From assembly GCA_021297795.1 (NCBI GenBank), contig JAJTGL010000029.1:1-35070 (forward strand): a stretch of DNA of 35,070 nucleotides, in the 5' to 3' direction. This document shows positions 6,668-31,833 of the stretch, piece after piece; position 1 is the first letter of the stretch; every line of letters begins with the position of its first letter. A program made the translations under genes and the position numbers. Under the pieces are notes generated by a model. That model was not told the origin of the DNA and did not search any database. It was given only the letters and a program-made list of their open reading frames with translations. This stretch comes from Planctomycetaceae bacterium (GTDB lineage Bacteria > Planctomycetota > Phycisphaerae > Phycisphaerales > SM1A02).

Positions 6668-7948
6668 TCACGCGCGATGCGCGCCGACCTTCGGCGCGTT
6701 CGGGTTCACTTCCGGGCCAAAGTACCTGAGGCAGACCAGCGGTTCCACCGCCGAGGTGTTCGTGAAGGTCACGCCGCGCTTTGCGCCCGCCTCGGTGCAG
6801 AAGTACTCGTCGTTCGTCAGTTCGCGGAATCGGATCAGCCGCGGGCTCGACAGCGGCTCGCCGTTGATCGTGCCCGTGCCCTGCACGCAGGTCAGGCCGT
6901 ACGCGCCGTTGTCGACGACGGTCGCCGTCGCACCCGGCTCGACCGTCAGTTCCTTTGCGGTGAAGTACTCGAAGCCGTTCATCTTGCCGTAGATGATCCA
7001 GCGGTCGTGCCAGCCCGCGCCCTGCGCGGCGGTCACCGGCTCGAGGTAGCGGTTCGCCTTGAAGTTCGGGTCGACGTTCTTCTCCCAGTCGAGCTGCTCG
7101 ACGATGAAGTCGAGATCGCGGTGCTTCTCCTTCGGCATGTCCTTGACGAGAAGCTCCCACGGCACCATGCGCCCCTCGACCAGCGACTGGTACATCGCGA
7201 AGACGTCGCTCCCCCACTGCGGCTCGTAGGTGCACAGCGATCCGGGCGCGTGCAGCACGCGCGGTTCCATGATCCAGCCCGAGCCCACCTTGAGGCGATA
7301 CGCCTGCGAGATGTCGAGGATGCCGTTGTCGCCCTTGTTCCAGTTCTCAAGGCAACGCCGCACATCGGCTTTCGTTGTGCCTGGCACAAGTCCCATGAAG
7401 GTGTGCGGGAAGTTGTTGCCGACGGGGTTGTGCTGCGGCGGGAAGTAGTACGCCTCGGGCTTCCCTTCCTGTCCGACGAGCGCCGCCTGCGCATCGTCCT
7501 GATGCATGTGGTGCGGGATCGGCCCCATGTTGTCGAAGAACTTCGCGTACACGGGCCACTTGCCGTAGCGCTTCCACAGCCGCTCGCCGATCAGTTCGGC
7601 GCCGGATTCGGCGACGGCCTGCTTCAACGTGAAGCGCTCGCGCCCGACCACGCAGTACGAGAGTCCCTCGTCGGGCGTGCGGTTGTCGTTCGCCGCCTCG
7701 GTGGTCGAGCTGAACCAGCGCTCGTCGATGCCACCGCGATGGAGGCCGTAGGCGTAGGTGTCGTCGGGATGCAGCTTGATGCGCAGGCCCGGCTGCAGGA
7801 ACGATCGCGGCACCCAGCACGGGGCGAGGCGCAGGAGACCGTGCGTTCGCGCGAGTTCGCGCGACACGGTGGCCGCGACGCCGTCGGCGCGGGTCGAGAG
7901 TTCGAGGGTGGTCGTCGGTGCCGAGGCGGCGGAGGCGGCGGAAGACAT
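6668..7948 (-). CDS. Phosphomannose-isomerase-like cupin protein
   Basis: A 426-residue protein related to class I mannose-6-phosphate isomerases. The metal-site cluster is visible as PIPHHMHQ (His146, 147, 149) followed by GKPEAYYFPP with Glu165, and a later His233 (IMEPRVLHAPG). The C-terminal half is a second beta-barrel ending in LVCLRYFGPEVN. It is cytoplasmic, with no signal peptide. Family members interconvert hexose phosphates or bind sugars; this one is divergent, so mannose-6-phosphate is not assured. The ATG at 7948 has no Shine-Dalgarno but lies seven bases after CATACT, suggesting a leaderless mRNA. The GH13 gene lies upstream on the same strand, 174 bases away. Confidence 0.8.
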   Translation of the reverse strand: MSSAASAASAPTTTLELSTRADGVAATVSRELARTHGLLRLAPCWVPRSFLQPGLRIKLHPDDTYAYGLHRGGIDERWFSSTTEAANDNRTPDEGLSYCVVGRERFTLKQAVAESGAELIGERLWKRYGKWPVYAKFFDNMGPIPHHMHQDDAQAALVGQEGKPEAYYFPPQHNPVGNNFPHTFMGLVPGTTKADVRRCLENWNKGDNGILDISQAYRLKVGSGWIMEPRVLHAPGSLCTYEPQWGSDVFAMYQSLVEGRMVPWELLVKDMPKEKHRDLDFIVEQLDWEKNVDPNFKANRYLEPVTAAQGAGWHDRWIIYGKMNGFEYFTAKELTVEPGATATVVDNGAYGLTCVQGTGTINGEPLSSPRLIRFRELTNDEYFCTEAGAKRGVTFTNTSAVEPLVCLRYFGPEVNPNAPKVGAHRA

Positions 7949-7955
7949 GTGCCGC

Positions 7956-7961
7956 AGTATG
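7956..7961 (-). promoter_or_regulatory. -10 box (CATACT) at a leaderless-type start of the cupin gene
   Basis: CATACT on the minus strand ends seven bases before the ATG at 7948, so the transcript would begin at or next to the start codon. It matches the arrangement at six other genes in the window, although its first two bases are CA rather than TA. Confidence 0.45.
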
Positions 7962-8122
7962 GCGCGAGAGCCGCGCGGCAGGGATCCGGGACGCCGCGCA
8001 TGCGGAAAATCCGCAGTCCGGACCTCCCCCGCATCAACGGCGCGTCGACGGCGCATCGACAGTGCGACCGACTCGGGGCGAACTCCGCCCGAGCCCGGCC
8101 ACCGAGTCCCCTGCCGTGTCGC

Positions 8123-9667
8123 CTACCGCATCCGCTTGTACGGCGAGTGCTGCCCCGGCGTCGGCGGCACGATCTTCAGCACGCGCACCGATTTCGGCGG
8201 CAGCTTCAGCGTGGCGAAGCCCATGTGGACGTGCGTCGAGAATGCGTCGGGCCGATCGAACGCGAGCGCGTCGCGGAAGTGCGTGCCCGCCATGATCCGG
8301 CCGTCGCGCATCGAGAGCGTCTCCTCGACCTCGACATCCTCCATGTTCGCGACGACGAGCACGCTCTCGAGCGCGCGGTCGGTTGTCCGCAGGAACGCGA
8401 GGAGCTTCCGCCCGCGCAGGAAGATCACATCGCCCTTCGCGGCCGCTCGCATCGCGCGACGCGCGCCGTAGAGCCCGCGCATGAACTCCCACTCGGGGTG
8501 CCCGTCGTGCACCAGATCCCAGCGCATCGGCGCGCGGTTCTCGGGGTCGGCCCCGCCCGGCGTGCCGACCTCCTGCCCGTAGTAGAGGTTCGGACAGCCC
8601 GGCAGCATCGCCTGCAAGACGTGCGCGATGCGCCGCTCGCGCTCGTTGGGCACAAGATGCGCAAGGCGCTCGGTGTCGTGGTTCTCGAGCGTCGTCCAGC
8701 AGCGCAGGACGAACTCGATGCCCGCGTCGTCGACCATGTCGCGCAGACGCTCGGCCGTCACGGTCGCATCGGCGCGGCCGCGGCAATAGTCGAGCACGAT
8801 CATGCGCGCGTTCATGTTGAGGATGCCGTCGAGCGAGCGCTCCCAGCCGCTCGGCGCGTTCCAGATCTCGCCAACGACGCACGAACCCGGCTTCTCGCGG
8901 TGCGCGCTCTGCGTGAGTTCGCGGAGGAAGTGCGGCCCGAGGTCGCTCGCCACGTCCAGGCGCCAGCCGTCGACGCCGTCGCGCAGGTACGAGCGCACCA
9001 CGCTGTCGGTCGCCAGCCACAGGTGATCGCGCACCTCCTCGCGCTCGACGCGCAGGTCGGGCAGGTTCGCCACGTCCGCCCAGCCGCGGTAGCCGTTCGG
9101 ATACTCGCTGCCGATGAAGAACCACGATCGGTACGGGCTCCGGTCGTCGCGCATCGCCTCCTCGAACAGGCGGTGGCGGCGGCCGACATGGTTGAAGACG
9201 CCGTCGAGCACGACCTTGAGCCCACGCGCGTGGGCATCGCCGACCAGCATGCGCAGATCGGCGCGCGAACCGTACTCGGGGCTCACCGCGAGATAGTCGG
9301 CGCTGTCGTACTTGTGGTTCGTGTACGCGAGGTGGATCGGGTTCAGGTAGAGGACGTCGGCCGGGATCGCGCCGAGGTGATCGAGCCGCGCGCGCACGCT
9401 CGCCAGATCGCCGCCCCAGAAGTCGATCTCGTGACTCCAGACGCCGGCCTCCTCGACGAAGTGTCCCTTCGCCGGCAACTCGTTCCAGTGACGGAGACGC
9501 TTCGGCGACGGATACTGCGCACGCTTCGCGTCGAGGTCCGTGCTCGGCGCGAAGCGGTCGACGAAGACCTGGTAGACGACGGCGCCGGCGCGCCAGTCAG
9601 CCTCGCGCGCGGCGATCCGGTCGGACATGTCCATGACGCTGTGAAGAACGTTGTTCTGGGGGAGCAC
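8123..9667 (-). CDS. GH13 alpha-amylase-family glycoside hydrolase
   Basis: A 514-residue enzyme counted from GTG 9667. All four GH13 regions are present: I, DGVFNH (155-160); II, GWRLDVA with nucleophile Asp238; III, VGEIWN with acid/base Glu267; IV, ENHD with Asp331. The N-terminal part reads AVVYQVFVDRFAP and the C-terminal beta domain includes VLVVANMEDVEVEETLS. There is no signal peptide, so it is probably cytoplasmic, like maltodextrin glucosidase or cyclomaltodextrinase/neopullulanase. GTG 9667 is preferred because TATCCT lies eight bases upstream; ATG 9634 or 9628 are alternatives without a visible ribosome binding site. It probably hydrolyses alpha-glucan oligosaccharides. Confidence 0.92.
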   Translation of the reverse strand: MLPQNNVLHSVMDMSDRIAAREADWRAGAVVYQVFVDRFAPSTDLDAKRAQYPSPKRLRHWNELPAKGHFVEEAGVWSHEIDFWGGDLASVRARLDHLGAIPADVLYLNPIHLAYTNHKYDSADYLAVSPEYGSRADLRMLVGDAHARGLKVVLDGVFNHVGRRHRLFEEAMRDDRSPYRSWFFIGSEYPNGYRGWADVANLPDLRVEREEVRDHLWLATDSVVRSYLRDGVDGWRLDVASDLGPHFLRELTQSAHREKPGSCVVGEIWNAPSGWERSLDGILNMNARMIVLDYCRGRADATVTAERLRDMVDDAGIEFVLRCWTTLENHDTERLAHLVPNERERRIAHVLQAMLPGCPNLYYGQEVGTPGGADPENRAPMRWDLVHDGHPEWEFMRGLYGARRAMRAAAKGDVIFLRGRKLLAFLRTTDRALESVLVVANMEDVEVEETLSMRDGRIMAGTHFRDALAFDRPDAFSTHVHMGFATLKLPPKSVRVLKIVPPTPGQHSPYKRMR

Positions 9668-9675
9668 GGGGCGGG

Positions 9676-9681
9676 AGGATA
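9676..9681 (-). promoter_or_regulatory. -10 box (TATCCT) at a leaderless-type start of the GH13 gene
   Basis: TATCCT on the minus strand is followed by eight bases and then GTG at 9667, in frame with the GH13 protein. The spacing equals that at the 29927 and 14977 starts. Confidence 0.5.
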
Positions 9682-9847
9682 GCGCGCGGGCGAGAAGGTG
9701 CAGGCGCGGGAGGATGCCGCGGTCGTGGCTCGGTGAACTCGGAAGTCGACGGCACATGAACCGAGAGCGTGACGCACGTCGGCACGTTCCGCGCGCGTCA
9801 TCCACGCGAGGGATCGCCTCTCCGGACAGCCGGCCGGGCGACATCGA

Positions 9848-9863
9848 CGGCGACTCGTCGCCG
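9848..9863 (-). terminator. Hairpin after the Deg-type protease gene
   Basis: CGGCGA and TCGCCG form a perfect 6-bp stem with a CTCG loop, 30 bases beyond the protease stop codon. No T-tract follows, so it could be a terminator without a tail or a simple 3' stem. Confidence 0.35.
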
Positions 9864-9892
9864 AGCGGCACGCGGGTCCGGCGCCCGCAGGC

Positions 9893-11560
9893 TCACTCCT
9901 TCGTCCACACCGACTGGACGTCCTTCGAGCACTGCCGGCGGATGCCGTTCGAGTCCATGATCTTCTCGGTCGAGCCCTCGATCTCGGCGCGCTTGAAGAC
10001 GAGCCGCTCGATGCCGCGCTCGTTGAATTCGAACACGACGTACTCGTCCTGGAGGTCGTTGAGGATCTTCACGAACTCGGCGAAGTTCGCGAAGGTCTTG
10101 CCGTTCACGCTCTTCACCGACTGGCCGGGGTTGACCTCGTAGCCGCGACCGACCGGATGCGAAAGGAGCGGCGATGCCACCGTCACCACCTGCCGTCCGC
10201 CGCTCGGGCGCTCGTCGGTGATCGACGCCGCGATCGGGCTTTCGCCGAAGAACATCCAGCCACCCGTCATGCGCAGGAGATCCCAGTGGAGCGGGCTGAA
10301 CACGAGCGGCCCGTACACGAGGTACGGATAGTTGCCGTCGGGATAGCTGCCGATCGTGCGCGTGGCGCGCGTGAACGCCGGGATCTCGGCGGTCGCGGTC
10401 TTTCCGTCGCGCACGTACTCCACGGTGATCGTCTTCTTGTCGGCCGTCGGCACGAAGCGCCCGACCGCGCAGTCCATCGCCACCTTGCGATCACCCTCGA
10501 TCGTGATCTGCCCCTTGTTGTCGATCGAGTAGCCGTTGATCTTGGCGAGGATGTCCCACGACTGCAGCGGACCGCCCTTCTGGTCGATCACGACCACGCC
10601 CGACACGTCGGCCCCGGCGCCGAGCTTCGCGCGCAGCGCCGGATTCTCGAGCGTCTGCGTCTCGATTCCGATGATCGTGTTGCCGTCGACCGCGCCCGCC
10701 TCGACCTCCGCGAGGAACCGCCGGACCTCTTCCGTCGCGAGGAGATACGCGATGTTGTCGGCCATCGAGTTGTCCATGCCGCTGAAGGCGAGACCCGCGA
10801 CCTTGCCGTCGACGAACGCCGGTCCGCCCGAGTTGCCGAAGTTGATCGCGGCGTCCACCTGGACGCGCATGCCCTCCTCGCCCGACTGGCCGATCTCGGC
10901 CCATTCGATGCGCGAGATCACGCCGCTCGTCGTCGAGAGCTGCTCGCCGCCGAGCGGGTAGCCCATCACCACCACGCGCGCGCCTTCCTTGGGCAGGCCC
11001 TCGAGGATCGGAATCGGCGGGTGCGCGGCGATGAACGCCTCGTCGGTCGTCCCGAGCAGCGCGAGGTCACGCGTTGGGTCGAAGCCAAGCAGCTCCGCCT
11101 GCACGGGCAGCGTGGTCTGGTTTGTCTCGAGCAGGATCTCGCTCGCCTGCTCGACCACGTGCGCGTTGGTGAGAATCTTGCCGGGAGCGATGACGACGCC
11201 CGACCCACCGAGTTCCTGCGGGCTCTCACGCTTCCATGGCGTCGTGGGGTCGCGCGTCTCCTGGCGCACCTTGATGTTGATCACCGACTTCCGCAGCGCG
11301 GCCTCGACGTCGGATGCGGCCTGTTCGACGCCCTTCCCGGCGCCCTGCCCTGCGGCTTCCGCGGACTTTGCCTGTTGCGCGGGCGCGGCGGCGGGCGGAA
11401 CCGCCGGCTTGGCCAGGTCCTGCGCAGCGTCCTGCGTGGCCGGCACGGCGAAGAGCGGCGCGGCGAGTCCGAGAGCGGCGCAGGCGACGAGCGCCGGGCG
11501 GAGGATGGACGAGGAGCAAACGGCGCGGGAGAAGTCGATCTGCATCGCCGCATTGAACAT
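9893..11560 (-). CDS. Secreted Deg/HtrA-type trypsin-like serine protease
   Basis: A 555-residue exported protease. The signal peptide spans about residues 1-40 (LVACAALGLAAPLFA), followed by an Ala/Pro/Gln-rich linker to about 80. The chymotrypsin-fold catalytic triad is intact: His134 in LTNAHVVE, Asp165 in DPTRDLALLG and Ser244 in NFGNSGGPAF. Residues 270-555 hold PDZ-like segments, one around GVVVIDQKGGPLQSWDILAKING and another near GYEVNPGQSVKSVNGK. The overall order, including YGPLVFSPLHWDLL, recalls plant Deg9-like proteases more than E. coli DegP (inference). Likely periplasmic quality control. The start at ATG 11560 is uncertain; ATG 11545 would shorten the signal peptide by five residues. 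It is divergent from prfC. Confidence 0.9.
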   Translation of the reverse strand: MFNAAMQIDFSRAVCSSSILRPALVACAALGLAAPLFAVPATQDAAQDLAKPAVPPAAAPAQQAKSAEAAGQGAGKGVEQAASDVEAALRKSVINIKVRQETRDPTTPWKRESPQELGGSGVVIAPGKILTNAHVVEQASEILLETNQTTLPVQAELLGFDPTRDLALLGTTDEAFIAAHPPIPILEGLPKEGARVVVMGYPLGGEQLSTTSGVISRIEWAEIGQSGEEGMRVQVDAAINFGNSGGPAFVDGKVAGLAFSGMDNSMADNIAYLLATEEVRRFLAEVEAGAVDGNTIIGIETQTLENPALRAKLGAGADVSGVVVIDQKGGPLQSWDILAKINGYSIDNKGQITIEGDRKVAMDCAVGRFVPTADKKTITVEYVRDGKTATAEIPAFTRATRTIGSYPDGNYPYLVYGPLVFSPLHWDLLRMTGGWMFFGESPIAASITDERPSGGRQVVTVASPLLSHPVGRGYEVNPGQSVKSVNGKTFANFAEFVKILNDLQDEYVVFEFNERGIERLVFKRAEIEGSTEKIMDSNGIRRQCSKDVQSVWTKE

Positions 11561-11580
11561 GGAGCCGCCACACCGCGCAA

Positions 11581-11626
11581 CCGACCGACTCGACGATTCG
11601 GACGCTCGAGTCCGTCGAGCGGTCGG
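11581..11626. repeat. Inverted repeat in the protease/prfC divergent region
   Basis: CCGACCGACTCGACG (11581-11595) pairs with CGTCGAGCGGTCGG (11613-11626): 14 base pairs with one bulged A, around a 17-base loop. It lies 21 bases before the protease start, so it could be a hairpin in the protease leader or a protein-binding palindrome. Confidence 0.5.
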
Positions 11627-11688
11627 GCACCGGGCACCTCCGTCCGCCACTTCTCCCACCGCGCCGTTTCTGCGACAATCCCGCCCCC

Positions 11689-11739
11689 TCGAACCGCGAA
11701 GACACTCGAACCGCGAAGACACTCGCACCGCGCAGATAC
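11689..11739. repeat. Three tandem 17-bp units directly before prfC
   Basis: TCGAACCGCGAAGACAC occurs exactly twice (11689-11705, 11706-11722), followed by a third copy with three changes (11723-11739). The array ends four bases before the prfC ATG and fills the space where a ribosome binding site would be; no Shine-Dalgarno is visible. Confidence 0.85.
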
Positions 11740-11743
11740 CCGA

Positions 11744-13348
11744 ATGGCACAGACTTCCGCGCATCTCCCCCGCCGCACGTTCGCGATCATCTCGCACCCG
11801 GACGCCGGCAAGACCACGCTCACCGAGAAGTTCCTCCTCTACGGCGGCGCGGTCGCGCTCGCGGGCTCGGTGACCGCGCGCAAGGACCAGCGCGCGACGG
11901 CGTCCGACTGGATGGAGCTCGAGAAGCAGCGCGGCATCTCGATCTCGTCGACGGTGCTCCAGTTCGACTACAACGGCTACCGCGTCAACCTGCTCGACAC
12001 GCCGGGCCACAAGGACTTCAGCGAGGACACCTACCGCGTGCTCACCGCGGTCGACGCGGCGGTGATGGTGATCGACGCGGGCAAGGGCATCGAGCCGCAG
12101 ACGCGGAAGCTGTTCGAGGTGTGCCGTCGACGCGGCGTGCCGATCTTCACCTTCATGAACAAGTGCGACCGGCCGACGAAGGATCCGATCGCGCTGCTCG
12201 ACGAGCTCGAGAGCGTGCTCGGGATCGGCGCGTTCCCCGTGAACTGGCCGTTCGGCAACGGTCCCGAATTCCGCGGCGTCTACGACCGCCTCGACAAGCG
12301 CCTGCATCTCTTCGAGCGCACGAAGGGCGGCATGCGCGAGGCCCCCGTGCAGGTGGTCGGCCTCGACGACCCCGCGATCACGTCGCGGATGGACGCCGAC
12401 ATCTACCGCCAGGGTCGCGACGAGCTCGACATGCTCGAGGGCGCCGGAGCCGGGTTCGACCGCGCGCGCGTCCTCGCGGGCGAGATCACGCCGGTCTACT
12501 TCGGGAGCGCCGCCAACAACTTCGGCGTGCAGCTTCTCCTCGACGGATTCCTCGAGCATTCGGCCGATCCCGGCGCGCGTCGCTCGGGCGAGCGCCTCAT
12601 CGAGCCGAAGGATCCGACGTTCAGCGGCTTCGTCTTCAAGATCCAGGCGAACATGGATCCGAAGCACCGCGACCGCATCGCGTTCGTACGCGTCGTGAGC
12701 GGCAAGTTCGAGCGGGAGATGACCGTCGTGCACGTCCAGAGCGGCAAGAAGATCCGCCTCTCGAGCGCGCAGAAGCTCTTCGGGCAGGAGCGCGAGACCG
12801 TCGAGGAGGGCGAGGCCGGCGACGTGATCGGCATCATTGGCCACGACATCCTCCAAATCGGCGACACGCTCGCCGAGGACCGCACGATCCGCTTCAGCGA
12901 GATCCCGCAGTTCACGCCCGAGGTCTTCGCGTACCTCACGAATCCGCAGCCCGGCAACTCGAAGAAGTACCGCCTCGGCGTCGACCAGCTCCTGAAGGAA
13001 GGCGTCGTGCAGCAGATGGAGGTCGGCGCCGGTCAGCTGAAGACGCCGATCCTCGCGGCGGTGGGCCCGCTCCAGTTCGAGGTCGTGCAGTACCGGCTGA
13101 AGAGCGAGTACGGCGCCGAGTCGCGCCTCGAGAAGGCGCGCTGGCAGATCGTGCGCTGGTGGCGGAAGAACGGCGCGCCCGCCGACTTCCTGCCCGAGGT
13201 CCTCAGCGATTCGACGCACGGCGTCGACGCCGCGGGCCGCCCGGTGATCTTCTTCTCCGACGAGTGGGCGCTGCGCAACTTCCAGAAGCGCCTGCCCGAC
13301 GTCGAGATCTCACCGCTTCCCTTCGACGATGTGGCGGCGGGAGCGTGA
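11744..13348 (+). CDS. prfC: Peptide chain release factor 3
   Basis: A 534-residue translation GTPase, close to the usual RF3 length of about 530. GTPase motifs are clear: G1 SHPDAGKTT, the switch region EKQRGISISS, G3 DTPGHKDFSEDT, G4 NKCD. RF3-specific features follow, including VYFGSAANNFGVQLLL, the HVQSGKKIRLSSAQKLFGQER segment and the C-terminal VGPLQFEVVQYRLKSEYG. It recycles RF1/RF2 from the ribosome after termination. The ATG at 11744 begins MAQTSAHLPRRTFAIISHPDAGKT, a normal RF3 N-terminus. The pyruvate kinase gene follows 77 bases downstream on the same strand. A GACAAT box near 11674 could be its -10. Confidence 0.97.
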   Translation: MAQTSAHLPRRTFAIISHPDAGKTTLTEKFLLYGGAVALAGSVTARKDQRATASDWMELEKQRGISISSTVLQFDYNGYRVNLLDTPGHKDFSEDTYRVLTAVDAAVMVIDAGKGIEPQTRKLFEVCRRRGVPIFTFMNKCDRPTKDPIALLDELESVLGIGAFPVNWPFGNGPEFRGVYDRLDKRLHLFERTKGGMREAPVQVVGLDDPAITSRMDADIYRQGRDELDMLEGAGAGFDRARVLAGEITPVYFGSAANNFGVQLLLDGFLEHSADPGARRSGERLIEPKDPTFSGFVFKIQANMDPKHRDRIAFVRVVSGKFEREMTVVHVQSGKKIRLSSAQKLFGQERETVEEGEAGDVIGIIGHDILQIGDTLAEDRTIRFSEIPQFTPEVFAYLTNPQPGNSKKYRLGVDQLLKEGVVQQMEVGAGQLKTPILAAVGPLQFEVVQYRLKSEYGAESRLEKARWQIVRWWRKNGAPADFLPEVLSDSTHGVDAAGRPVIFFSDEWALRNFQKRLPDVEISPLPFDDVAAGA

Positions 13349-13425
13349 CCGACGCCGCGGAGAAGCCGCAGGCCTGACGCACGCGGAAGAGCCCGCACGG
13401 GACGAAACCTCACGAGAGACGACGC

Positions 13426-14910
13426 ATGGATCACCCTCGCCTCGCCGACCTCCACGACGCGATCCGCACGTTGCGCGACGAAGCGAGCGCGCTGGAGCGC
13501 TCGATGCGCGCGTCGATCGACGCCACGCCGCCGTCGATGCACCGGAGCGCGGAGAACCTCGCCCACTACCTGGCGCTCCGCGCCTCGGATCACGTGCCCC
13601 TGCAGGCGGAGCTGATCCGCACCGGGCTTTCGTCGCTCGCGCGCCGCGAGGCGCACGTGATGCCCACGCTCGACGCGGTCGAGCGCGCGCTGGCGGCGAT
13701 GTGTGGGCGCACGCCCGACGCGCCGCGCGCGGACATCGCGATCGACGACGGCGCCACGCTGCTCGAGCGCCATGCGGCCGAACTGCTCGGCCCTTCCGCG
13801 CCGCATCCGACGCGCATCGTCGTCACGCTTCCGCCCTGGGGCGCGGGCGACGTGACGCTCATGGGCTCGCTGATCGACGCGGGGATGGATTGCGGCCGCA
13901 TCAACGCCTCGCACGGAGACCCGGCGCAGTGGAAGGCCTGCGCCGATGCGCTGCGCACCGCGGCCGCCGCGCGCGGACGTCGCATCCCGATCTCGATCGA
14001 CCTCGCGGGTCCGAAGGTGCGCACGGGCGCCTGCGCAAGCGGCCCGGTCGACCTGCGCGCCGGCGACACGGTCGTGCTGCATGCCGGCGCATCGAGCACC
14101 GATGCGCCGCGCGACGCCGAGGGCCGAGCGACCGGTGCCGCGCGCATCGCCGTTCGTCCGCGCGAACTCGTCGCACACATCGAGCCGCGTCACCGCGTCC
14201 TCTTCGACGACGGCAACATCCGCGCGCGCTGCACCGCGGTCGACCGCGCCGCGGGCGAGGCGACGTGCACGATCGAAGCCGCGCGCACCGGCGCCTGGCC
14301 GCTCAAGGACCGCAAGGGCGTGAACGTGCCTGATACGAATCTCCCGATTCGCGCGCTGACCGACGACGATCTCGTCACGCTCGACTTCGCCGTCCCGCAC
14401 ATCGACTACGTCTCGATGAGCTTCGTGCGCGGACCTGCCGACATCGCCGATCTCCATGCAGCCATCCTTGCGCGCACGCGGCGGCCGATCGGCATCGTCG
14501 CCAAGATCGAGACTCCGCAGGCCTGCCATGCGCTTCCCGAGATCCTGCTCGAGCTGATGAAGATGCCGCCGTGCGGCGTGATGCTCGCGCGCGGCGATCT
14601 CGGCGTCGAGATCGGCTTCGAGAATCTGCCCGAGGCGCAGGACGAGATCCTCGCGCTCTGCGAGGCCGCGCACGTGCCGGTGATCTGGGCGACGCAGGTG
14701 CTCGAGTCGATGACCGACCACGGGTTCCCGACGCGCGGCGAGGTGACCGACGCCGCCGACGCCGCCCGCGCCGACGCGGTCATGCTCGGGATCGGCCCCT
14801 TCATGCTCGACACCGTGCGCTTCGTCGAGGATCTGCTCGCGCGCACGAAGCTCCGTCGCGCGCGCAGCCGGGCGATCCTCGGCAAGTGGAACGCCGAGTT
14901 CGGCGCCTGA
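13426..14910 (+). CDS. Atypical pyruvate kinase with N-terminal extension
   Basis: A 494-residue protein. Residues 1-127 form a helical, non-standard extension (RLADLHDAIRTLRDEASALE ... TLDAVERALAAMCG). The catalytic barrel then begins (TRIVVTLPPWGAGDVTLMG, RINASHGD with Arg158 and Asn160, DLAGPKVRTG at 192-201). The B domain spans about 205-300. The barrel resumes with KGVNVPDTNLP, MSFVRGPADI, KIETPQA (Lys360, Glu362), ARGDLGVEI (Asp391) and ATQVLESMTDHGFPTRGEVTDAADA. The usual SGETA after VML is replaced by GIGPFM, and the C-terminal regulatory domain is absent. It probably converts PEP and ADP to pyruvate and ATP, or the reverse, but it is divergent and its activity and regulation are uncertain. 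It may be co-transcribed with prfC. Confidence 0.82.
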   Translation: MDHPRLADLHDAIRTLRDEASALERSMRASIDATPPSMHRSAENLAHYLALRASDHVPLQAELIRTGLSSLARREAHVMPTLDAVERALAAMCGRTPDAPRADIAIDDGATLLERHAAELLGPSAPHPTRIVVTLPPWGAGDVTLMGSLIDAGMDCGRINASHGDPAQWKACADALRTAAAARGRRIPISIDLAGPKVRTGACASGPVDLRAGDTVVLHAGASSTDAPRDAEGRATGAARIAVRPRELVAHIEPRHRVLFDDGNIRARCTAVDRAAGEATCTIEAARTGAWPLKDRKGVNVPDTNLPIRALTDDDLVTLDFAVPHIDYVSMSFVRGPADIADLHAAILARTRRPIGIVAKIETPQACHALPEILLELMKMPPCGVMLARGDLGVEIGFENLPEAQDEILALCEAAHVPVIWATQVLESMTDHGFPTRGEVTDAADAARADAVMLGIGPFMLDTVRFVEDLLARTKLRRARSRAILGKWNAEFGA

Positions 14911-14962
14911 ACGGCGTCGCGCGCGCACGCGCGGTCCGCCGCCCTCCGGCCGGGGCCTTGGA

Positions 14963-14968
14963 TACACT
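14963..14968 (+). promoter_or_regulatory. -10 box (TACACT) at a leaderless-type start of lemA
   Basis: TACACT is followed by eight bases and ATG 14977, and no Shine-Dalgarno is present. Transcription would start at or beside the start codon. Confidence 0.5.
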
Positions 14969-14976
14969 GCGCCGCC

Positions 14977-15600: not shown

Positions 15601-15669
15601 GCCTGCACACGCGGTAGACGATCGCGAGAAGGCGAACGAGACGACGGGCGCGGATTCGAGAGGAGGAAC

Positions 15670-17601: not shown

Positions 17602-17650
17602 GCGGGGCCTGTCGAGATAGACGGCGCGGGGCCAGCTGAAACGAGCGCGT

Positions 17651-18376: not shown

Positions 18377-18383
18377 CCGTTCG

Positions 18384-18389
18384 ATTGTA
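18384..18389 (-). promoter_or_regulatory. -10 box (TACAAT) at a leaderless-type start of the sigma factor gene
   Basis: TACAAT on the minus strand is followed by seven bases and then GTG 18376, in frame with the sigma factor. No good -35 hexamer is visible 17 bases further upstream. Confidence 0.55.
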
Positions 18390-18765: not shown

Positions 18766-18836
18766 GACCCTGAGTCCCGCGCCTGTTGGCTCCCAGCCCA
18801 GCTTGCCGCGACTCCGCCAATCCCCGACCTTTCCGC

Positions 18837-20985: not shown

Positions 20986-21003
20986 CCTCGACTGCACACA
21001 TCC

Positions 21004-24624: not shown

Positions 24625-24648
24625 AGCGCGCGTAGGACACGAAGCTCG

Positions 24649-24698
24649 CGCTCCGAAGGAGCGACGGTTCACATCACGCGGGACGGCGCGAAGCGCCG
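24649..24698. terminator. Two GAA-loop hairpins between convergent genes
   Basis: CGCTCC-GAA-GGAGCG (24649-24663) and CGGCGC-GAA-GCGCCG (24684-24698) lie in the 82-base gap between the secreted protein stop (24624) and the rhaM stop (24707). The second is followed on the plus strand by GTCGTTTCT. Together they could terminate transcription from both sides. Confidence 0.5.
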
Positions 24699-24706
24699 GT
24701 CGTTTC

Positions 24707-25027
24707 TCACGCGAGATAGAACACCTGCTCGAGCGGCACGATCGACGTATCCGCGCGGCCGCCAGGCAGTTCCTCGAAGTACTCGACCATCGACTTCTGC
24801 CACCGGGCGTTCACTTCCTCGCTCTGCATTCCCGCAACGGCCTTCTTGAAGTCGGGTGTTTCGAGATACCCGATGAGGAGTCCATCCTCGCGCAGGAAGA
24901 TCGAGTAGTTCGTCCACCCATGCCGCGACAGCGCGGCGAGCATCTCGGGCCAGACGGCCTTGTGGCTCTCGCGATACTCGGCGAGGCGATCGGCCTTGAC
25001 ACGCAGCGTGAAGCAGACTCGTTGCAT
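24707..25027 (-). CDS. rhaM: L-rhamnose mutarotase
   Basis: A 106-residue protein matching RhaM/YiiL, which interconverts the alpha and beta anomers of L-rhamnose. The family signature is clear: RVCFTLRVKADRLAEYRESHKAVWPEML with His22 at the position of the known active-site histidine, then GWTNYSIFLREDGLLIGYLE and a C-terminal WQKSMVEYFEEL. The ATG at 25027 has AGGAG six bases upstream, so it is translated independently. It is the last gene of the rhamnose operon, 41 bases after the aldolase/dehydrogenase stop at 25069. The upstream gene's frameshifted frame runs into it, but that is an artefact of the damage upstream. Confidence 0.94.
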   Translation of the reverse strand: MQRVCFTLRVKADRLAEYRESHKAVWPEMLAALSRHGWTNYSIFLREDGLLIGYLETPDFKKAVAGMQSEEVNARWQKSMVEYFEELPGGRADTSIVPLEQVFYLA

Positions 25028-25068
25028 CGGTATCTCCTGCTCTCTCGGCGGACGACGCGACAGATCGT

Positions 25069-27142
25069 TCAGCGGACGAACGCGTCCGCCAACCCACCGT
25101 CGACGTGCAGCACCTGTCCCGTCGTCCGCGAGCTCTCCGGCCCCGCCATGAAGCGGATCGCCATCGCCTGATCGCGCGGGCCGCGGGAACATCGTGCTGC
25201 CCTCGATCACCGTCGCGGGCGCCACCGCGTTCACGCGAACGAATGGCGCGAACGTCACCGCCAGCGACCGAACCAGATGGTTCGCGGCCGCCTTCGACGC
25301 GTCGTAGGCGCTCGAACCCTTCTTCGAGACCACCGCGTTGACGCTCGTCGTCACAACCGCGCTGCACGCAAGCTTCTGCGGCGCCATCGTCGCGGCGGCC
25401 TCCTCGACGAGCACCGCGGGCGCAAGCACGTTCACCTGCATCGCGCGCATGAAGTCGCCATCGCTCGTGCGACCATCCGCACCGGGCGTCGGGAAGAGTC
25501 CCGCGGTCACGACCAGTTCGTCGATGCCGCCGTAGGCAAGCGTCACGTCGTCGAGCATCCGGCGCACCGCCGCGCGATCGGTCGCATCGCACGAAAGCGC
25601 GATCGCCGGTCCGCACGACGAGATGCCGCTGCCAGCGACGCCGATGCCGGTGCCGACCGACTTCTCGAGTTCCTTGGCGCACGCCTCGGCGGCCTTTGCG
25701 TCGAGGTCGATGCACGCGACGCACGCATCGTCGGCGGTGAAGAACGGCGCGGCCGCGCGGCCGATGCCGCTTCCAGCGCCCACGATCAACGACACGTGGC
25801 CCGCAAGCGGCTTCGGCTTCGGCATCCGCTGCAGTTTCGCCTCCTCGAGCCGCCAGTACTCGATGTCGAAGGCCTCCTGCCGCGGCAGCGCGCGGTAGCC
25901 GCCGATCGACTCGGCGCCCTTCATCACCTCGACCGCGCAGCGATAGAACTCGGCGGTGGTGCGCGACTCCGACTTCGACGATCCCCACGCGATCATGCCG
26001 ACCCCGGGCACGAGGATCACCGTCGGCTCGGGCGCGCGCATCGCCGGGCTATCCGGGTGGCGGCACGCCTCGTAGTACGCGGCGTAGTCCTTCACGTACT
26101 GCGCGAGACCGGCCTCGGTCTTCTCGCAGAGCTCGGCGAACGAACCCGTGTTCGGGTCGAAATCGACGAGCAGCGGCTTGATCTTCGTGCGCAGGAAGTG
26201 GTCGGGGCACGAGGTTCCCAGTTCGGCAAGCCGCGCCGCGTCGTGGCTCGACACGAAGTCGAGCATCGCCGCATCGTGCTGCACCGTCGCGATCATGCGC
26301 CGTCGCGTCGAGACCTTGCCGCGCAGGAACGGAAGGAACTTCACGAGCAGCGCACGCCGCGCGTCGTCCGCGACGGGCGTGATCCTCCGTCCGCCGAAGG
26401 TCTTCGCGCCGCGGTCGTGCGCGGCGAGGTACTCCGACGCGCGCGAGATCAGCGACAGCGTGAGGTCGTAGCACTCGCGCGGGTCGTCGGCCCAGTTGAT
26501 GAGGCCGTGCTGACCCATGATCGCGCCGACGGCGTTCGGATGGTCCTTGCACAGCTTCTCGAGCGCGAGTCCGAGCTCGAAGCCCGGACGCATCCACGGC
26601 AGCCATTCGAGTTCGCCGCCGAAGACCTCGCGCATCGCCTCCTCGCCGCGCACGCAGGCGGCGATCGCGATCAGCGCGTTCGGATGCGTATGGTCGACGT
26701 GCGCGCGCGGCACGAACGCGTGGAGCGGCGTGTCGATCGAGGTCGCGCGCGGATTGAGGTTCCACGTGCAGTGCCGGTAGAGGTCGACCATGTCGTCCTC
26801 GGCCTGCGTCTTGATCCCCTTCGGCGTGCGCGCGGCGTACACCGACTTGAGCTCCTCGAGCTTGTCGAGCGAGAGCGACGAGAAGAACTCGCGCCCGGCG
26901 GTGCGGAGGTCGCCGCCCGAACCCTTCACCCAGAGGACGCGCTCGGCGCGGCCCGTGAGCGGGTCCTTCTCGATCGTCTTGCTCGACGTATTGCCGCCAC
27001 CCGTGTTGGTCACGCGCTGGTCGTCGCCAAGGCGGTTCGAGCGATAGACGAGAAGGCCGACCGGATCGAGCTTCGCCGCGTCCCCGTCGTTCCAGGTGCG
27101 GGTGACGAAGGCGGGATTCTGCGTGAACTTCTTGGTGGTCAT
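25069..27142 (-). pseudogene. Bifunctional rhamnulose-1-phosphate aldolase/lactaldehyde dehydrogenase, disrupted by internal deletion and frameshift
   Basis: Residues 1-430 are a class II aldolase/adducin-type domain with metal-site candidates His151, His153 (HVDHTHPNALIA) and His212 (GQHGLINW). From about 445 a short-chain dehydrogenase follows, with nucleotide site GAGSGIG, Ser600 and YDASK (Tyr613, Lys617). After VIEGSTMFPR (Arg654, at 25183-25181) the frame breaks. The expected C-terminus, DQAMAIRFMAGPESS...VLHVDGGLADAFVR, continues in another frame to TGA at 25071-25069, and about 44 residues normally between these points are missing. The intact family splits rhamnulose-1-phosphate to DHAP and L-lactaldehyde and oxidises the latter to lactate. 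The aldolase half looks intact; the dehydrogenase half is probably inactive unless this is an assembly error. Confidence 0.85.
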
Positions 27143-27175
27143 GGGTGTCGTCCGGCGAAAGGCAGGACGCGGAGA

Positions 27176-28657
27176 CTAGCGGGAGAGACGAATCGCCGCG
27201 TCGCGCATGCGCGCCGCGTTGCTGAAATCGGGCTCGAAACGCTGCGCGGCCAACGCATCGCGGACGAGTCCGCGCAGGGTCCGCGCCTCGGAAACGCCCT
27301 CGAGCGCCGCGTGCTGGGCGAGCGCGTTTCCGATCGCGGTCGCCTCGAGCGGGCCTGTCTCGACGACCAGCCCCGTCGCGTCGGCGACGAGCTGGTCGAG
27401 CAGCGCATTCGCCGCCCCGCCGCCGACGATCACGAGGCGCTTCGGCGCGAGCGAGGCGGTCTCGGCCACCATCCGCGTTGCGCGCGCGGTCGCGAGCGCG
27501 ATCGAATCGAGCGCGCAGCGCACGAGCTCGCCATCGGTCTCGGGAACCGGCTCGCCGCGCGCCCGGCAGAGTTCGGCGATGTGCCTCGGCATGTCGCCGG
27601 GCGCGAAGAGCGACGGATCGTCGGGATCGACCACGCTCCGCAGCGGCTCGACCTCCGACGCAAGCGCCGCGAGCTCCGTCCAAGTCCGCGCGCGCCCGGC
27701 CGCGGCGAACGCCGCATCGAGCTGCTGCACGAGCCACAGTCCCGCGACATTCCGGAGGAAGCGCGTGGTGCCGAAGACACCGGCCTCGTTCGTCAGGTTC
27801 GCCACGCGCGCGGCGTCGGTGAGGACGGGCTTCGACAGTTCGGCTCCGACGAGCGACCACGTGCCGCTCGAGACATACAGGTCGTGCCGCGGATCGATCG
27901 GCGCCGCGAGCACCGCCGACGCCGTGTCGTGCGTACCGACCGCAAGCACGGGCGTGTCGGCGGAAAGCCCGGTTTCATCGGCGATATCCGGGAGAAGCGT
28001 GCCGAGCGGCTCGCTCGACGCCGCGTCGACGAGCTCGGGCAGGATGCGCACCGGCACACCCGCCGCACGCACGAGCTCGCGGTTCCAGTCGCGCGTGCGC
28101 GCGTCGAGGAACTGCGTCGAGCTCGCGTTCGTCCGCTCGCACGCCATGCTGCCGGTGAGACGCATGGCGATGTAGTCGGGCAGCATCAGCATCCGCTGCG
28201 CGCGCTCGAAGGGACGCATCGGATCGACCGCGTCGGCCGCCAGCTGGTAGAGCGTGTTGAACGGCTGGAACGCGATGCCGGTCGCGCCGTAGATCGCCGC
28301 GTCGCCCAGCTCGGCGCGCAGCCGCGCGAAGGGCGCCTGCGTGCGCGGGTCGCGATAGGCCGCGATCGGGCGCACGAGTTCGCCCTCGTCGTCGACGAGC
28401 GCGTAGTCGACCGCCCACGAATCGATGCCGATCGCATCGACCGGCCCATCCTCCGCCGCACGGCGGAGACCCTCGAGGATCGACTCGAAGATCCGCTCGA
28501 ACGGCCAGCAGAGCGTCACGTCGCCCGCGTGGCGTGCGGCGACGGGTGCGTTGGCGAAGCGATGGAGTTCGCGCACCGCAAGCGTTCCCTCGCCGACCGT
28601 GACTTCCATCACACGCCCGCTGGAGGCTCCGAGATCGATCGCGATGTGACGGCGCAT
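27176..28657 (-). CDS. rhaB: Rhamnulokinase (FGGY kinase family)
   Basis: A 493-residue sugar kinase. The N-terminal nucleotide-fold motif DLGASSGRVM, the substrate-site segment GIDSWAVDYALVD, AAYRDPRT, and AVGTHDTASAV with catalytic-base candidate Asp244 all match RhaB. The C-terminal domain has SSGTWSLVG and VIVGGGAANALLDQLVADA. It phosphorylates L-rhamnulose at C1. The ATG at 28657 comes two bases after the rhaI stop (28662-28660), so translation is probably coupled. The aldolase/dehydrogenase gene follows after 33 bases. Confidence 0.93.
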   Translation of the reverse strand: MRRHIAIDLGASSGRVMEVTVGEGTLAVRELHRFANAPVAARHAGDVTLCWPFERIFESILEGLRRAAEDGPVDAIGIDSWAVDYALVDDEGELVRPIAAYRDPRTQAPFARLRAELGDAAIYGATGIAFQPFNTLYQLAADAVDPMRPFERAQRMLMLPDYIAMRLTGSMACERTNASSTQFLDARTRDWNRELVRAAGVPVRILPELVDAASSEPLGTLLPDIADETGLSADTPVLAVGTHDTASAVLAAPIDPRHDLYVSSGTWSLVGAELSKPVLTDAARVANLTNEAGVFGTTRFLRNVAGLWLVQQLDAAFAAAGRARTWTELAALASEVEPLRSVVDPDDPSLFAPGDMPRHIAELCRARGEPVPETDGELVRCALDSIALATARATRMVAETASLAPKRLVIVGGGAANALLDQLVADATGLVVETGPLEATAIGNALAQHAALEGVSEARTLRGLVRDALAAQRFEPDFSNAARMRDAAIRLSR

Positions 28658-28659
28658 GC

Positions 28660-29844
28660 TCACGCGTAGCTCCCGCCGCTCGCCTTCTTGCGCGGAAGTC
28701 GCGCGGCGGCGGCGCGGGCAACGTAGCCGGACGCGCGGTGCGCGGCGAGCGGATCGCGCGGCAGTCCGCGCGATTCGCGCCACGCGGCGAGCGCGCCGCG
28801 GACGTCGGTCGCGAACGCGCTCTTCAGGCACTCCTCCGCGGCGACGATGTCGTTCGCCGCGCGCGCCGCATCGAGCCGGTCGAGATCGACGAGCAGCGCC
28901 TTCGCAAAGAGTTCCTGCACCGTGGTCACGGTCTGGATCATCGCCTCGATCTTCGGCTTCTCGTTGTGCGACTGGTCGACCATGTACTCGATGTCGAGGT
29001 CGCGGCCGGCGCCGCGTTCGGCCTCGGCGATCGCGACGAAGATGCGGAAGACGCGGTAGGGGTCGATCGAACCCGTCGTCAGGTCGTCGTCTGCGTAGTG
29101 GCGGTCGTTGAAGTGGAAGCCGCCGAGCATGCCTTCGTCCGCGAGGAACGCGACGATGTGCTCGATGTTCTGCCCGGGCAGATGGTGGCCCGTATCGACG
29201 AGCACCTTCGCCTTCGGCCCCGCATGACGGGCGAACGCCGCGGCCATGCCCCAGTCGGCGATGTCGGTGTGGTAGAAGGCGGGCTCGAACGGCTTGTATT
29301 CGACGAGCATGCGCATGTCGCGGTCGAGCGCCGCATGCACCTCGGCGAGCGCCTCGGTGAACCAGCGCTTCCTGCGCACGAAGCTCCCCTGCCCCGGATA
29401 GCTGGTGCCGTCGGCGAACCAGAGCGCGAGCGTGCGCGAGCCGACCGCACGCGCGACGGCGACCGAATCGAGCATGTGGTCGACGGCGCGCCGCCGCACG
29501 GCCGCGTCCTCGTTCGCGACCGAGCCGTGGCGATAGCACTGGTCCTGGAAGACGTTCGGGTTGATCGAGCCGATGCGCAGGCCGCGAGCGCGCGCCGCCG
29601 CGGCCAGCGCCGTCGCACCGCCCTCGGGGAGATCCCAGAGGACATGCACCGCCACGCTCGGACACGCGCCGGTCAGGCGATGAACCTCGGCGGCGTCGTC
29701 GAGCTTGTCCTCGAGGGTGAGCGCCGCGGCATCCTGCAGGTACTTCCCGAAGCGGGTACCGGTGTCCGCGAATCCCCACGACGGGAGTTCGATCGACAGG
29801 CGAGAAAGTCGATCGGAAATCTTTCCGGAAAACTCGCGGCTCAT
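28660..29844 (-). CDS. rhaI: L-rhamnose isomerase, RhaI type
   Basis: A 394-residue TIM barrel enzyme of the RhaI group (Pseudomonas stutzeri-like), not the E. coli RhaA group. Metal-site candidates are in MLVEYKPFEPAFYHTDIADWG (Glu), VLVDTGHHLPGQN (Asp, His) and GGFHFNDRHYADDDLTTGSID (His, Asp); the N-terminus reads IELPSWGFADTGTRFGKY. It converts L-rhamnose to L-rhamnulose and is the first gene of the rhamnose operon. The ATG at 29844 lacks a clear Shine-Dalgarno but follows TATCTT by six bases. No dedicated regulator or transporter gene is in the window. Confidence 0.92.
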   Translation of the reverse strand: MSREFSGKISDRLSRLSIELPSWGFADTGTRFGKYLQDAAALTLEDKLDDAAEVHRLTGACPSVAVHVLWDLPEGGATALAAAARARGLRIGSINPNVFQDQCYRHGSVANEDAAVRRRAVDHMLDSVAVARAVGSRTLALWFADGTSYPGQGSFVRRKRWFTEALAEVHAALDRDMRMLVEYKPFEPAFYHTDIADWGMAAAFARHAGPKAKVLVDTGHHLPGQNIEHIVAFLADEGMLGGFHFNDRHYADDDLTTGSIDPYRVFRIFVAIAEAERGAGRDLDIEYMVDQSHNEKPKIEAMIQTVTTVQELFAKALLVDLDRLDAARAANDIVAAEECLKSAFATDVRGALAAWRESRGLPRDPLAAHRASGYVARAAAARLPRKKASGGSYA

Positions 29845-29850
29845 GCTCGC

Positions 29851-29856
29851 AAGATA
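29851..29856 (-). promoter_or_regulatory. -10 box (TATCTT) at a leaderless-type start of the rhamnose operon
   Basis: TATCTT on the minus strand is followed by six bases and ATG 29844. The divergent gene at 29927 has its own box at 29913-29918, so both promoters share an 82-base gap. Confidence 0.5.
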
Positions 29857-29912
29857 CGCGATCCGGCCGCATGTTGAGGAGGAGTGCCGCCCGTCGCGGC
29901 GCTCGCGCGAGG

Positions 29913-29918
29913 TAGGAT
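29913..29918 (+). promoter_or_regulatory. -10 box (TAGGAT) at a leaderless-type start of the 29927 gene
   Basis: TAGGAT is followed by eight bases and GTG 29927. The same hexamer precedes the carbonic anhydrase gene. Confidence 0.5.
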
Positions 29919-29926
29919 TCCGACCC

Positions 29927-31159
29927 GTGAGCGCATCACCCAAGGATCAACCTGCCGTCACCACGATCCGCGTCCGAGACGCGCTCGTGCGGCTGCAGAC
30001 CTCGGTGCGCGAGGCGATGGCCGGCGCGAAGCAACTCGAGGGAGGCCGCCCGGTCGACCTCGTCGCGGCATTTGGTCTCGATCTCAAGCTGGCGTGGAAG
30101 ATTTCGCGCATCGCGCAGTCGGGCGACCCGTTCGCCGCCGTACGCCACATGCCGGGCGCCGCGGGCTGGAAGATCGCGATGGATGCGATGCGCGCTGCGG
30201 GTTCCCCCGCCACGCGCATCGAGGCCGCCGACGCGGCGTTCGAGGAAGCGATCGACCTCGGCACCGCATGGGCCGGCGACCGCAAGGCGTTCGACATGAT
30301 GGCCGCGGGCCTCGCGGCGGGCAGCGACCTCCGCATCGACGTCGAGCATCGACGCCAGCTCTATCTCGGCGGCAGCTACGTGTGGGGCGTGCGCGCACGC
30401 CTCGCGCTTCGCTTCGACGTGATGGGTCCCGCCGCGAAGAAGGGACTGCTCGACTGCGCGACCGTGCGCGGGTTCGTCGACCTCGAGCGACTGCGCGCCG
30501 ATGCACCGTGGCAGTTCGAGGCGCCGGTCGTCTTCGACGATCGCGCGACCAAGGCCGTGAGCTTTCGCGCCGAACCGATCGAGCCGCCGCCGGCGGGTGC
30601 TCCCGATGGACTGCCGCTCATCGGATCGCTCTCGTCGCAGCCGATCCCGCAGCTGCGTGCGACCTCCGCACCGAAGGGCTTCCGGGCCTTCGAGATCCCC
30701 GAGACCGGCGTCGGCATCGAGGGTCGCTTCACGATCTTCCAGGGCTCGATCCTGCGCGCCGTGCAGCCGATGCAGCGTTCGAAGCGCCATACCGGCATCT
30801 TCCAACTGTTCCGGCAGCGCACGCCCGCGGAGCGCTCCGTGTTCGATCTCCTCGTGCACGAATCGCTGCTGGCGGACGGCCGGCTGCCCGAGGCGATCCT
30901 CTACAGCGATCTCCACCGCACGCCCGACGCGCCCGTGCACCAGCCGAAGGACCGCATTCCCGCGGGAATCGGCGTCGAATCGCTCGGCCCGGCGTCGAAG
31001 CGTCTGAAGCTCGAGGGTTTCGAGCAGTACGCGCAGATGAGCGCGCAGGTCTTCGCGGCGACCGGTTGGAAACCCTCGGAGTTCCGCGCGTTCCGCGTGG
31101 CCGCGCCATATCTGCCCGTGCCGTCGACGCTCGTCCTCGAGATGCAGATCGCCGACTGA
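29927..31159 (+). CDS. Protein of unknown function, divergent from the rhamnose operon
   Basis: A 410-residue protein with no signal peptide or membrane segment. I do not recognise the family. The first 90 residues (VTTIRVRDALVRLQTSVREA ... LVAAFGLDLKLAWKISRIAQSGDPFAAVRHMPGAAGWKIAM) look helical, and the LKLAWKISRI stretch could be part of a helix-turn-helix. The remainder is mixed alpha/beta with PIGSLSS-like turns, QPMQRSKRHTGIFQLFRQ and a C-terminal PVPSTLVLEMQIAD. GTG 29927 is chosen because TAGGAT lies eight bases upstream and no ATG fits. Its position suggests either a regulator of the rhamnose operon or an independent gene; the sequence does not decide. Confidence 0.75.
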   Translation: MSASPKDQPAVTTIRVRDALVRLQTSVREAMAGAKQLEGGRPVDLVAAFGLDLKLAWKISRIAQSGDPFAAVRHMPGAAGWKIAMDAMRAAGSPATRIEAADAAFEEAIDLGTAWAGDRKAFDMMAAGLAAGSDLRIDVEHRRQLYLGGSYVWGVRARLALRFDVMGPAAKKGLLDCATVRGFVDLERLRADAPWQFEAPVVFDDRATKAVSFRAEPIEPPPAGAPDGLPLIGSLSSQPIPQLRATSAPKGFRAFEIPETGVGIEGRFTIFQGSILRAVQPMQRSKRHTGIFQLFRQRTPAERSVFDLLVHESLLADGRLPEAILYSDLHRTPDAPVHQPKDRIPAGIGVESLGPASKRLKLEGFEQYAQMSAQVFAATGWKPSEFRAFRVAAPYLPVPSTLVLEMQIAD

Positions 31160-31200
31160 GCGACCGGGAACCTTCATCCGAGCCCGCTGCGCCGATCCCG

Positions 31201-31206
31201 TAGGAT
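31201..31206 (+). promoter_or_regulatory. -10 box (TAGGAT) at a leaderless-type start of the carbonic anhydrase gene
   Basis: TAGGAT is followed by six bases (GCGGCC) and ATG 31213. No Shine-Dalgarno is present. Confidence 0.55.
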
Positions 31207-31212
31207 GCGGCC

Positions 31213-31833
31213 ATGTCGACCGAGCATCTTCTCGAGAACAACCGCGCCTGGGCCGCGCGGATGGAGCGGGAGCGCCCGGGGTTCTTCAGGAGCCTCGTCT
31301 CGCAGCAGAAGCCGCGCTACCTCTGGATCGGCTGCGCCGACAGCCGCGTGCCCGCCAACGAGATCATCGGCCTGCCGCCCGGCGAGGTCTTCGTCCACCG
31401 CAACGTGGCGAACCTCGTCGTCCACAGCGACCTGAACTGCCTCTCCGTCCTCGACTTCGCCGTGAACGCGCTCGGAGTCCAGGACATCATCGTCTGCGGT
31501 CACTACGGCTGCGGCGGCGTGAATGCCGCGCTCGCGCCGACGGAGAACCGCATCGTCGACCACTGGATCCGCCACATCCGCGACATCGCCAAGCACTACA
31601 AGGACGACATCGAGCGCGAGCCGACGGCCACCGCGCAGTCGCGGCGCCTCTGCGAGCTGAATGTCGCCGTGCAGGTCGTCCACGTACGCGAATCGCCGGT
31701 GCTCCTCGCCGCGCGCACGAAGGGCGTCCAGGTGCACGGCTGGATCTACGACGTCGCCGACGGCCTCCTCCGCGACCTCACGCCGATCGTCGACGAGGTG
31801 CGCGCACTCGAACCCTCGTGCAGGCTCTCGTGA
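31213..31833 (+). CDS. can: Beta-class carbonic anhydrase
   Basis: A 206-residue enzyme interconverting CO2 and bicarbonate. Zinc ligands and catalytic dyad are clear: Cys41, Asp43 and Arg45 in IGCADSRV, and His97 and Cys100 in GHYGCGG. HRNVANLV and the C-terminal VHGWIYDVADGLL match the Can (CynT-like) clade. It is cytoplasmic and of normal length. The stop overlaps the start of the permease gene (GTGA at 31830-31833), so the two are probably translated together. Confidence 0.95.
   Translation: MSTEHLLENNRAWAARMERERPGFFRSLVSQQKPRYLWIGCADSRVPANEIIGLPPGEVFVHRNVANLVVHSDLNCLSVLDFAVNALGVQDIIVCGHYGCGGVNAALAPTENRIVDHWIRHIRDIAKHYKDDIEREPTATAQSRRLCELNVAVQVVHVRESPVLLAARTKGVQVHGWIYDVADGLLRDLTPIVDEVRALEPSCRLS

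Follow-up and report, generated by a model that had tools for sequence, protein, structure and literature searches.

The 35,070-nucleotide stretch analyzed here (positions 1 to 35,070 of contig JAJTGL010000029.1, assembly GCA_021297795.1), hereafter the window, comes from a lake-dwelling planctomycete of the order Phycisphaerales. An earlier note on this DNA had listed seven genes that seem to lack a Shine-Dalgarno (SD) sequence and whose start codons lie a few bases behind a hexamer resembling a -10 promoter element (TANNNT), raising the question of whether this genome holds a substantial class of leaderless genes, whose mRNA would begin at, or almost at, the start codon itself. From gene counts over a large part of the genome, gene context and conservation in relatives, we consider it very probable that about a fifth of the genes of this organism are expressed from leaderless mRNAs, both the transcription start and the leaderless translation being inferred from sequence.

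A hexamer at a set distance from start codons

The source assembly (3.2 Mb in 147 contigs, 83% complete) contains the window as contig C137. Together with 60 further stretches (L003 to L062), the window forms a sample of 908 kb, or 28% of the genome, with a GC content of 68.8%. Genes were called in this sample with a gene finder written for this analysis, which selects starts from coding statistics and codon type with no regard to the upstream sequence, and 617 genes, each with 60 bases upstream, were counted. We defined the box as TANNNT and the spacer as the number of bases between the end of the box and the start codon, the chance level being taken from offsets 16–45, where 1.37 boxed genes are found per offset. 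At spacers 6–8, 78 of the 617 genes are boxed, compared with 4.1 expected, and the number rises to 97 (6.8 expected) when spacers 6–10 are considered. These 97 genes are distributed as 47, 15, 16, 13 and 6 over spacers 6, 7, 8, 9 and 10, the mode being 6, and no TANNNT is found at spacers 0–5 among the 617 genes. Shuffles preserving the dinucleotide composition gave 0.8 genes, instead of 47, at spacer 6, and 0.6 to 1.1 at each of spacers 7–10.

Searching for the pattern itself led to the same picture. On both strands of the 908 kb, TANNNT-N6-[AG]TG occurs 78 times; 47 of these occurrences coincide with called starts, and another 15 are in-frame and upstream of one within the same open reading frame (ORF). 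Of the 15 occurrences of the control TANNNT-N15-[AG]TG, 2 are at called starts. Over the whole assembly, TANNNT-N6-ATG was counted 259 times and TANNNT-N15-ATG 25 times, and a second control with the reversed patterns gave 89 and 77, respectively; we prefer the N15 control because it preserves both the pattern and the codon phase. The comparison that the earlier note had put forward as a check, TANNNT six to eight bases before starts against controls, thus reveals a strong enrichment, mainly in genes without an SD sequence, by genes in the sample and by pattern in the entire assembly.

When the TA motif was used to seed a mixture model, 22% of 616 genes were assigned to it. The fixed positions of the fitted motif read T74, A98 and T98, the first base being alternatively G (G18), and spacers 6–10 carry 86% of the weight. 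The model reached a log-likelihood of 215, compared with 27–39 in ten shuffled sets; since the fitted fraction in these sets ranged, at low likelihood, between 0.19 and 0.66, the value of 22% is a rough figure only. Around the 97 boxes, a -35 element (TTG, 14–22 bases upstream of the box) was counted 7 times, about 7 being expected from base composition, and the TG of an extended -10 element, one base before the box, was found in 3 genes. A G often precedes the box, at the second-last and last positions before it (57 and 52 of 97). This preference recurs in G054, a genome of the same phylum not placed in the class (12 and 12 of 20), and at one position in pooled stretches of the same genus (19 and 6 of 29), but not in Phycisphaera mikurensis (5 and 5 of 16) or genome G024 (4 and 3 of 12), and we take it as a hint only. 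TTG is the start codon of 1 of the 97 boxed genes and of 20 of the 520 others. The base directly before the start codon is C in 72 of the 97 boxed genes, and in the other gene classes, too, it is the most frequent base at this position (58–60%).

Two side observations concern these positions. Across all classes of the sample, C stands directly before 273 of 453 ATG starts, A and T being rare there, while internal in-frame ATGs are mostly preceded by G, with C before 1735 of 4159. Furthermore, homologues of the RF3 gene at 11744 (+) in L209, L212, L215 and L216 share GAGAAT, GACAAT or GACACT 11–12 bases before an ATG; these hexamers may represent a variant box, GANNNT, and the seeded model likewise allows G at the first position.

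Boxed and SD genes differ in genomic context

SD-like motifs precede 8 of the 97 boxed genes and 172 of the 520 other genes (Fisher p 1e-7). No 16S gene was found in this assembly, which left the anti-SD sequence unreadable. The two classes of genes also differ in their position relative to their neighbors, the boxed genes being common at the heads of transcription units: 41 of 200 divergent heads are boxed, compared with 1 of 68 overlapping or abutting same-strand genes. For genes with a same-strand gene upstream, the boxed share is 15 of 125 at gaps over 150 bases, 17 of 98 at 61–150 and 12 of 66 at 26–60, and 2 of 14 genes at the edges of the stretches are boxed. SD-like motifs follow the opposite trend, with 38 of 200 divergent heads and 43 of 68 overlapping or abutting genes.

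The box follows the start codon in relatives

The LemA gene (14977) has a box at spacer 6–8 in all 13 same-genus homologues with a readable start. In other genera and families of the order, none of 14 loci has a box at spacers 6–10 and several carry an AAGGAG-like sequence, although only 8 of these 14 are fair counterparts, as the other six are closer to a second LemA gene of this genome. For the carbonic anhydrase gene (31213), we examined 19 of 80 loci (L063 to L081). Of the 16 closest loci whose start is readable (69–92% identity), 13 have a box at spacer 6–9; L075, L078 and L080 (69–74% identity) have an SD-like sequence in its place, and two loci at 57–58% identity lack it. The middle bases of the box vary among these loci (TAGGAT, TACGAT, TACCAT and TAGCAT), hence AGGA is not the conserved part. 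Three of the loci (L064, L067 and L069) come from records titled, for example, Candidatus Kuenenia or Limnohabitans, yet their carbonic anhydrases are 83–92% identical to that of this planctomycete, which suggests that these contigs carry wrong labels.

Among the 7 distinct homologues of 29844, all have spacer 6 when any start within 20 codons is allowed and 6 do when only the nearest start counts; the spacer holds while the start codon, by extrapolation from the alignments, is displaced by 0 to 7 codons. At the nearest start, a box with GTG is present in 8 of 9 homologues of 9667, and CATACT is kept 6–10 bases before it in 6 of 7 homologues of 7948. Both homologues found for 18376 are boxed 8 bases before an ATG, which in one of them is not the nearest start, and the only homologue found for 29927 keeps the box. 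The SD genes 6045 and 15670 gave the converse result, all of their homologues (7 and 13, respectively) being unboxed at spacers 6–10. The box thus moves along with the start codon in relatives while its spacing is retained, as predicted if transcription and translation share their start.

Distribution in the Phycisphaerales and other Planctomycetota

We applied the same pattern counts (TANNNT-N6-ATG and TANNNT-N15-ATG) to other genomes. In the Phycisphaerales, as the order of P. mikurensis is called in a reference of PMC6461901, 58 of 71 genomes, our own included, have significantly more N6 than N15 counts (Bonferroni 0.001), and the ratio is at least 2 in 38. The excess is patchy in the rest of the phylum: among 56 further genomes it is significant in 17, the ratio is at least 2 in 10 and it does not exceed 1.1 in 29. 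The highest ratio, 321 to 14, belongs to the cultured Phycisphaera mikurensis.

Profiles at the gene level are in agreement: a box at spacers 6–8 was found in P. mikurensis NBRC 102666 (G108) before 13 of 167 genes (0.1 expected), in G054 before 18 of 173 (2.6 expected), in G024 before 10 of 109 (1.3 expected), in G078 before 7 of 146 (3.7 expected) and in G071 before 0 of 55 (1.7 expected). The first samples were too small for gene calling, with 0 of 13 genes boxed in G108, 0 of 20 in G082, 2 of 31 in G085, 2 of 41 in G054 and 1 of 35 in G078; those of G108, G054 and G078 were enlarged afterwards, and those of G082 and G085 have their first small size. As yardsticks, 7 of 41 annotated genes of a plasmid stretch of Deinococcus deserti are boxed at spacers 6–10 (1.5 expected), and 2 of 43 genes in a stretch of Escherichia coli K-12 (4.0 expected). 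Taken together, the enrichment at six to eight bases, mainly in genes without an SD sequence, and its presence in the order of P. mikurensis support the suggestion of the earlier note that a planctomycete genome may hold a substantial leaderless class.

Gene starts in the window

The boxes of the seven starts and one contrasting SD sequence are reported in Table 1. Six of the seven have a TANNNT at a spacer of 6–8 at the positions that had been given; the start at 7948 has its hexamer and spacer as described, which is not a TANNNT. When starts were chosen by coding score only, five of the seven were recovered (7948, 14977, 18376, 29844 and 31213), and at 9667 and 29927 the score tied with nearby codons (for 29927, GTG 29987).

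Table 1. Putative -10 boxes and a contrasting SD sequence in the window.
Feature	Position	Strand	Start codon and gene product
CATACT, variant -10 box	7956..7961	-	7 bases before ATG 7948; 426-aa protein, no Pfam match
TATCCT box	9676..9681	-	8 bases before GTG 9667; alpha-amylase family (Pfam)
TACACT box	14963..14968	+	8 bases before ATG 14977; LemA family (Pfam)
TACAAT box	18384..18389	-	7 bases before GTG 18376; no Pfam match
TATCTT box	29851..29856	-	6 bases before ATG 29844; xylose-isomerase-like TIM barrel
TAGGAT box	29913..29918	+	8 bases before GTG 29927; 410 aa, no confident Pfam match
TAGGAT box	31201..31206	+	6 bases before ATG 31213; beta-type carbonic anhydrase, Pro_CA (Pfam)
SD sequence AGGAGG	15661..15666	+	before ATG 15670, peptidase M48; contrasting leadered class

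Six other starts had been set apart as having a normal SD sequence, and a loose SD motif (AGGA, GGAG or GAGG ending 3–12 bases before the start) is indeed present at all six, although 25027 is doubtful as a gene start because it is an in-frame ATG within an 811-aa ORF. This ATG, on the minus strand in the ORF 24710–27142, has an SD-like AGGAG and stands directly before the RhaM domain (residues 708–810), and the RhaM mutarotase may also be made alone through internal initiation at this point. The genes at 29844 (-) and 29927 (+) are divergent and both boxed, with start codons 82 bases apart, which places two promoters in a very short stretch. On the minus strand, from 29844 to 24710, the boxed isomerase-like gene comes first, an FGGY kinase gene lies directly behind it, and a gene encoding an aldolase-dehydrogenase-RhaM fusion follows; this set is probably a rhamnose breakdown operon with 29844 as its first gene.

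Proposed mechanism

We propose that RNA polymerase with a housekeeping-type sigma factor would bind a minimal -10 element, in which the A and the last T are nearly invariant and the first T is usual, with no visible -35 element or TG extension. Transcription would start about seven bases downstream of the box, the first transcribed base being the A or G that opens the start codon, usually preceded by a C. The resulting mRNA would have no or almost no 5' leader, and its start codon, lying at the 5' end, would be recognized by ribosomes carrying initiator tRNA, translation proceeding without SD pairing. Operon-internal genes would mostly keep ordinary SD starts. The usual transcription start is the seventh base after the -10 hexamer, and a start at this base would explain why spacer 6 is the mode, why shorter spacers have no boxes, why TTG starts are rare in the class and why box and start codon stay linked in evolution. 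The claim of the earlier note that this class has a promoter geometry of its own is not supported, since the box stands where the usual -10 element falls when +1 is taken to be the start codon's first base. Translation of leaderless mRNAs by ribosomes loaded with initiator tRNA has been described for other prokaryotes (PMC10783764).

Alternative explanations

Among the alternatives, the one that survives best is that transcription begins slightly upstream of the start codon and leaves very short leaders of 1–4 bases, so that the genes would not be strictly leaderless. At the 50 of 97 boxes with spacers 7–10, RNA polymerase could begin at least one base before the start codon, and spacers 9–10 may mean leaders of a few bases. 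The mode at 6, which accounts for the other 47 boxes, points to the start codon itself, as does the C before the start, expected just before +1, an argument that is weak given that C is the commonest base there in the other classes too. We consider such short leaders unlikely.

A second explanation would be that the starts are mis-assigned, the boxes belonging to normal promoters of leadered genes whose true start codons are located further downstream. The ties of the coding score at 9667 and 29927 would fit this explanation, but the box follows the start codon at constant spacing in relatives, and only 3 of the 78 spacer-6 cases lie up to 40 codons downstream of a called start, compared with the 15 found in-frame upstream, which makes general mis-assignment very improbable. 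Equally improbable, in our view, is that the hexamer is a translation element rather than a promoter, either an SD variant (TAGGAT) or an AT-rich site for ribosomal protein S1. Two of the seven boxes, at 29927 and 31213, do contain AGGA, although these genes had been listed as lacking an SD sequence, and 8 of the 97 boxed genes are SD-like. Nevertheless, the relatives of 31213 keep TANNNT with different middle bases, only T, A and T being fixed among homologues, and boxed genes stand at operon heads and hardly at overlapping junctions. Finally, that AT-rich hexamers were merely picked by searching one window has a negligible probability: although the window alone shows a weak excess (8 TANNNT-N6-8-NTG, six of them listed starts, against 12 across the seven offsets 12–18), so that the claim depends on the genome counts, the excess in these is overwhelming and the boxes are conserved.

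Besides the wider spacers, the AGGA of two boxes and the counts in the window, several observations weigh against a leaderless class of this kind or extent. An unseeded search with 60 random seeds preferred SD-like or G-rich motifs (best log-likelihood 258), all nine distinct solutions listed being of these kinds, and the TA motif was obtained only when seeded. Neither a box nor an SD-like motif is present in 348 of the 617 genes, and the sizes of the gene classes depend on our home-made gene finder. Boxes also precede 9 of the 46 genes lying 1–25 bases behind a same-strand gene, where promoters would be needed within the end of the preceding gene. Lastly, under the reversed-pattern control the ratio falls below 1, with no excess, in 14 of the 71 order genomes, making the order-wide claim weaker for those genomes.

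Relation to known leaderless genes and significance

A survey of 953 bacterial genomes reported TA-led leaderless genes in 207 of them, and Planctomycetes are not among the groups it names (Zheng et al. 2011, PMC3160421). The class described here resembles theirs in having TANNNT in a high-GC genome, a first T that lies some 12 bases upstream of the start codon (mode 12 here as well) and a coexisting SD class, and the share of about 20% of genes given there for Actinobacteria compares with about 22% here by the seeded model. Zhong et al. (2025, PMC12340547) found that in Deinococcus-Thermus TANNNT likewise adjoins the ORF at a set spacing, alongside a ribosome-binding site motif. Experiments there demonstrated that the element functions as a promoter and yields leaderless products, an added -35 element raising transcription, whereas the evidence here is sequence-based, and the class covers about 30% of ORFs in that group. 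In a survey of non-SD genes by Nakagawa et al. (2017, PMC5397173), the single Planctomycetes species covered showed an upstream bias, which the authors linked with leaderless mRNA and/or S1; the account of it appears to give no motif, spacing or gene-level assignment, unlike the present one. Among the papers listed, our literature search found no work on leaderless genes of Phycisphaerales, and the domain-wide figure of Zhong et al. (2025) and the GeneMarkS-2 paper may already score planctomycetes. The mechanism is a known one, from Actinobacteria and Deinococcus-Thermus, with the usual promoter geometry, here in a phylum absent from the list of the 2011 survey.

More tentatively, and with the doubts falling somewhat on the heavier side, the promoter core of Phycisphaerales might consist of the start codon and a three-letter -10 element without -35 or TG, under constrained spacing, with box and start migrating together and single genes switching to or from SD; the class might then go back to the ancestor of the order, and P. 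mikurensis as well as common lake planctomycetes might use it as a main mode of gene expression.

With these results, freshwater planctomycetes and a cultured type strain, in which direct tests are possible, would join the bacteria that have a large leaderless class. Gene finders that expect an SD sequence will misplace boxed starts, and expression designs for these planctomycetes should not presume a leader. Genes that are boxed in one lineage and have an SD sequence in another would offer natural pairs in which to study the timing and causes of switches between the two modes.

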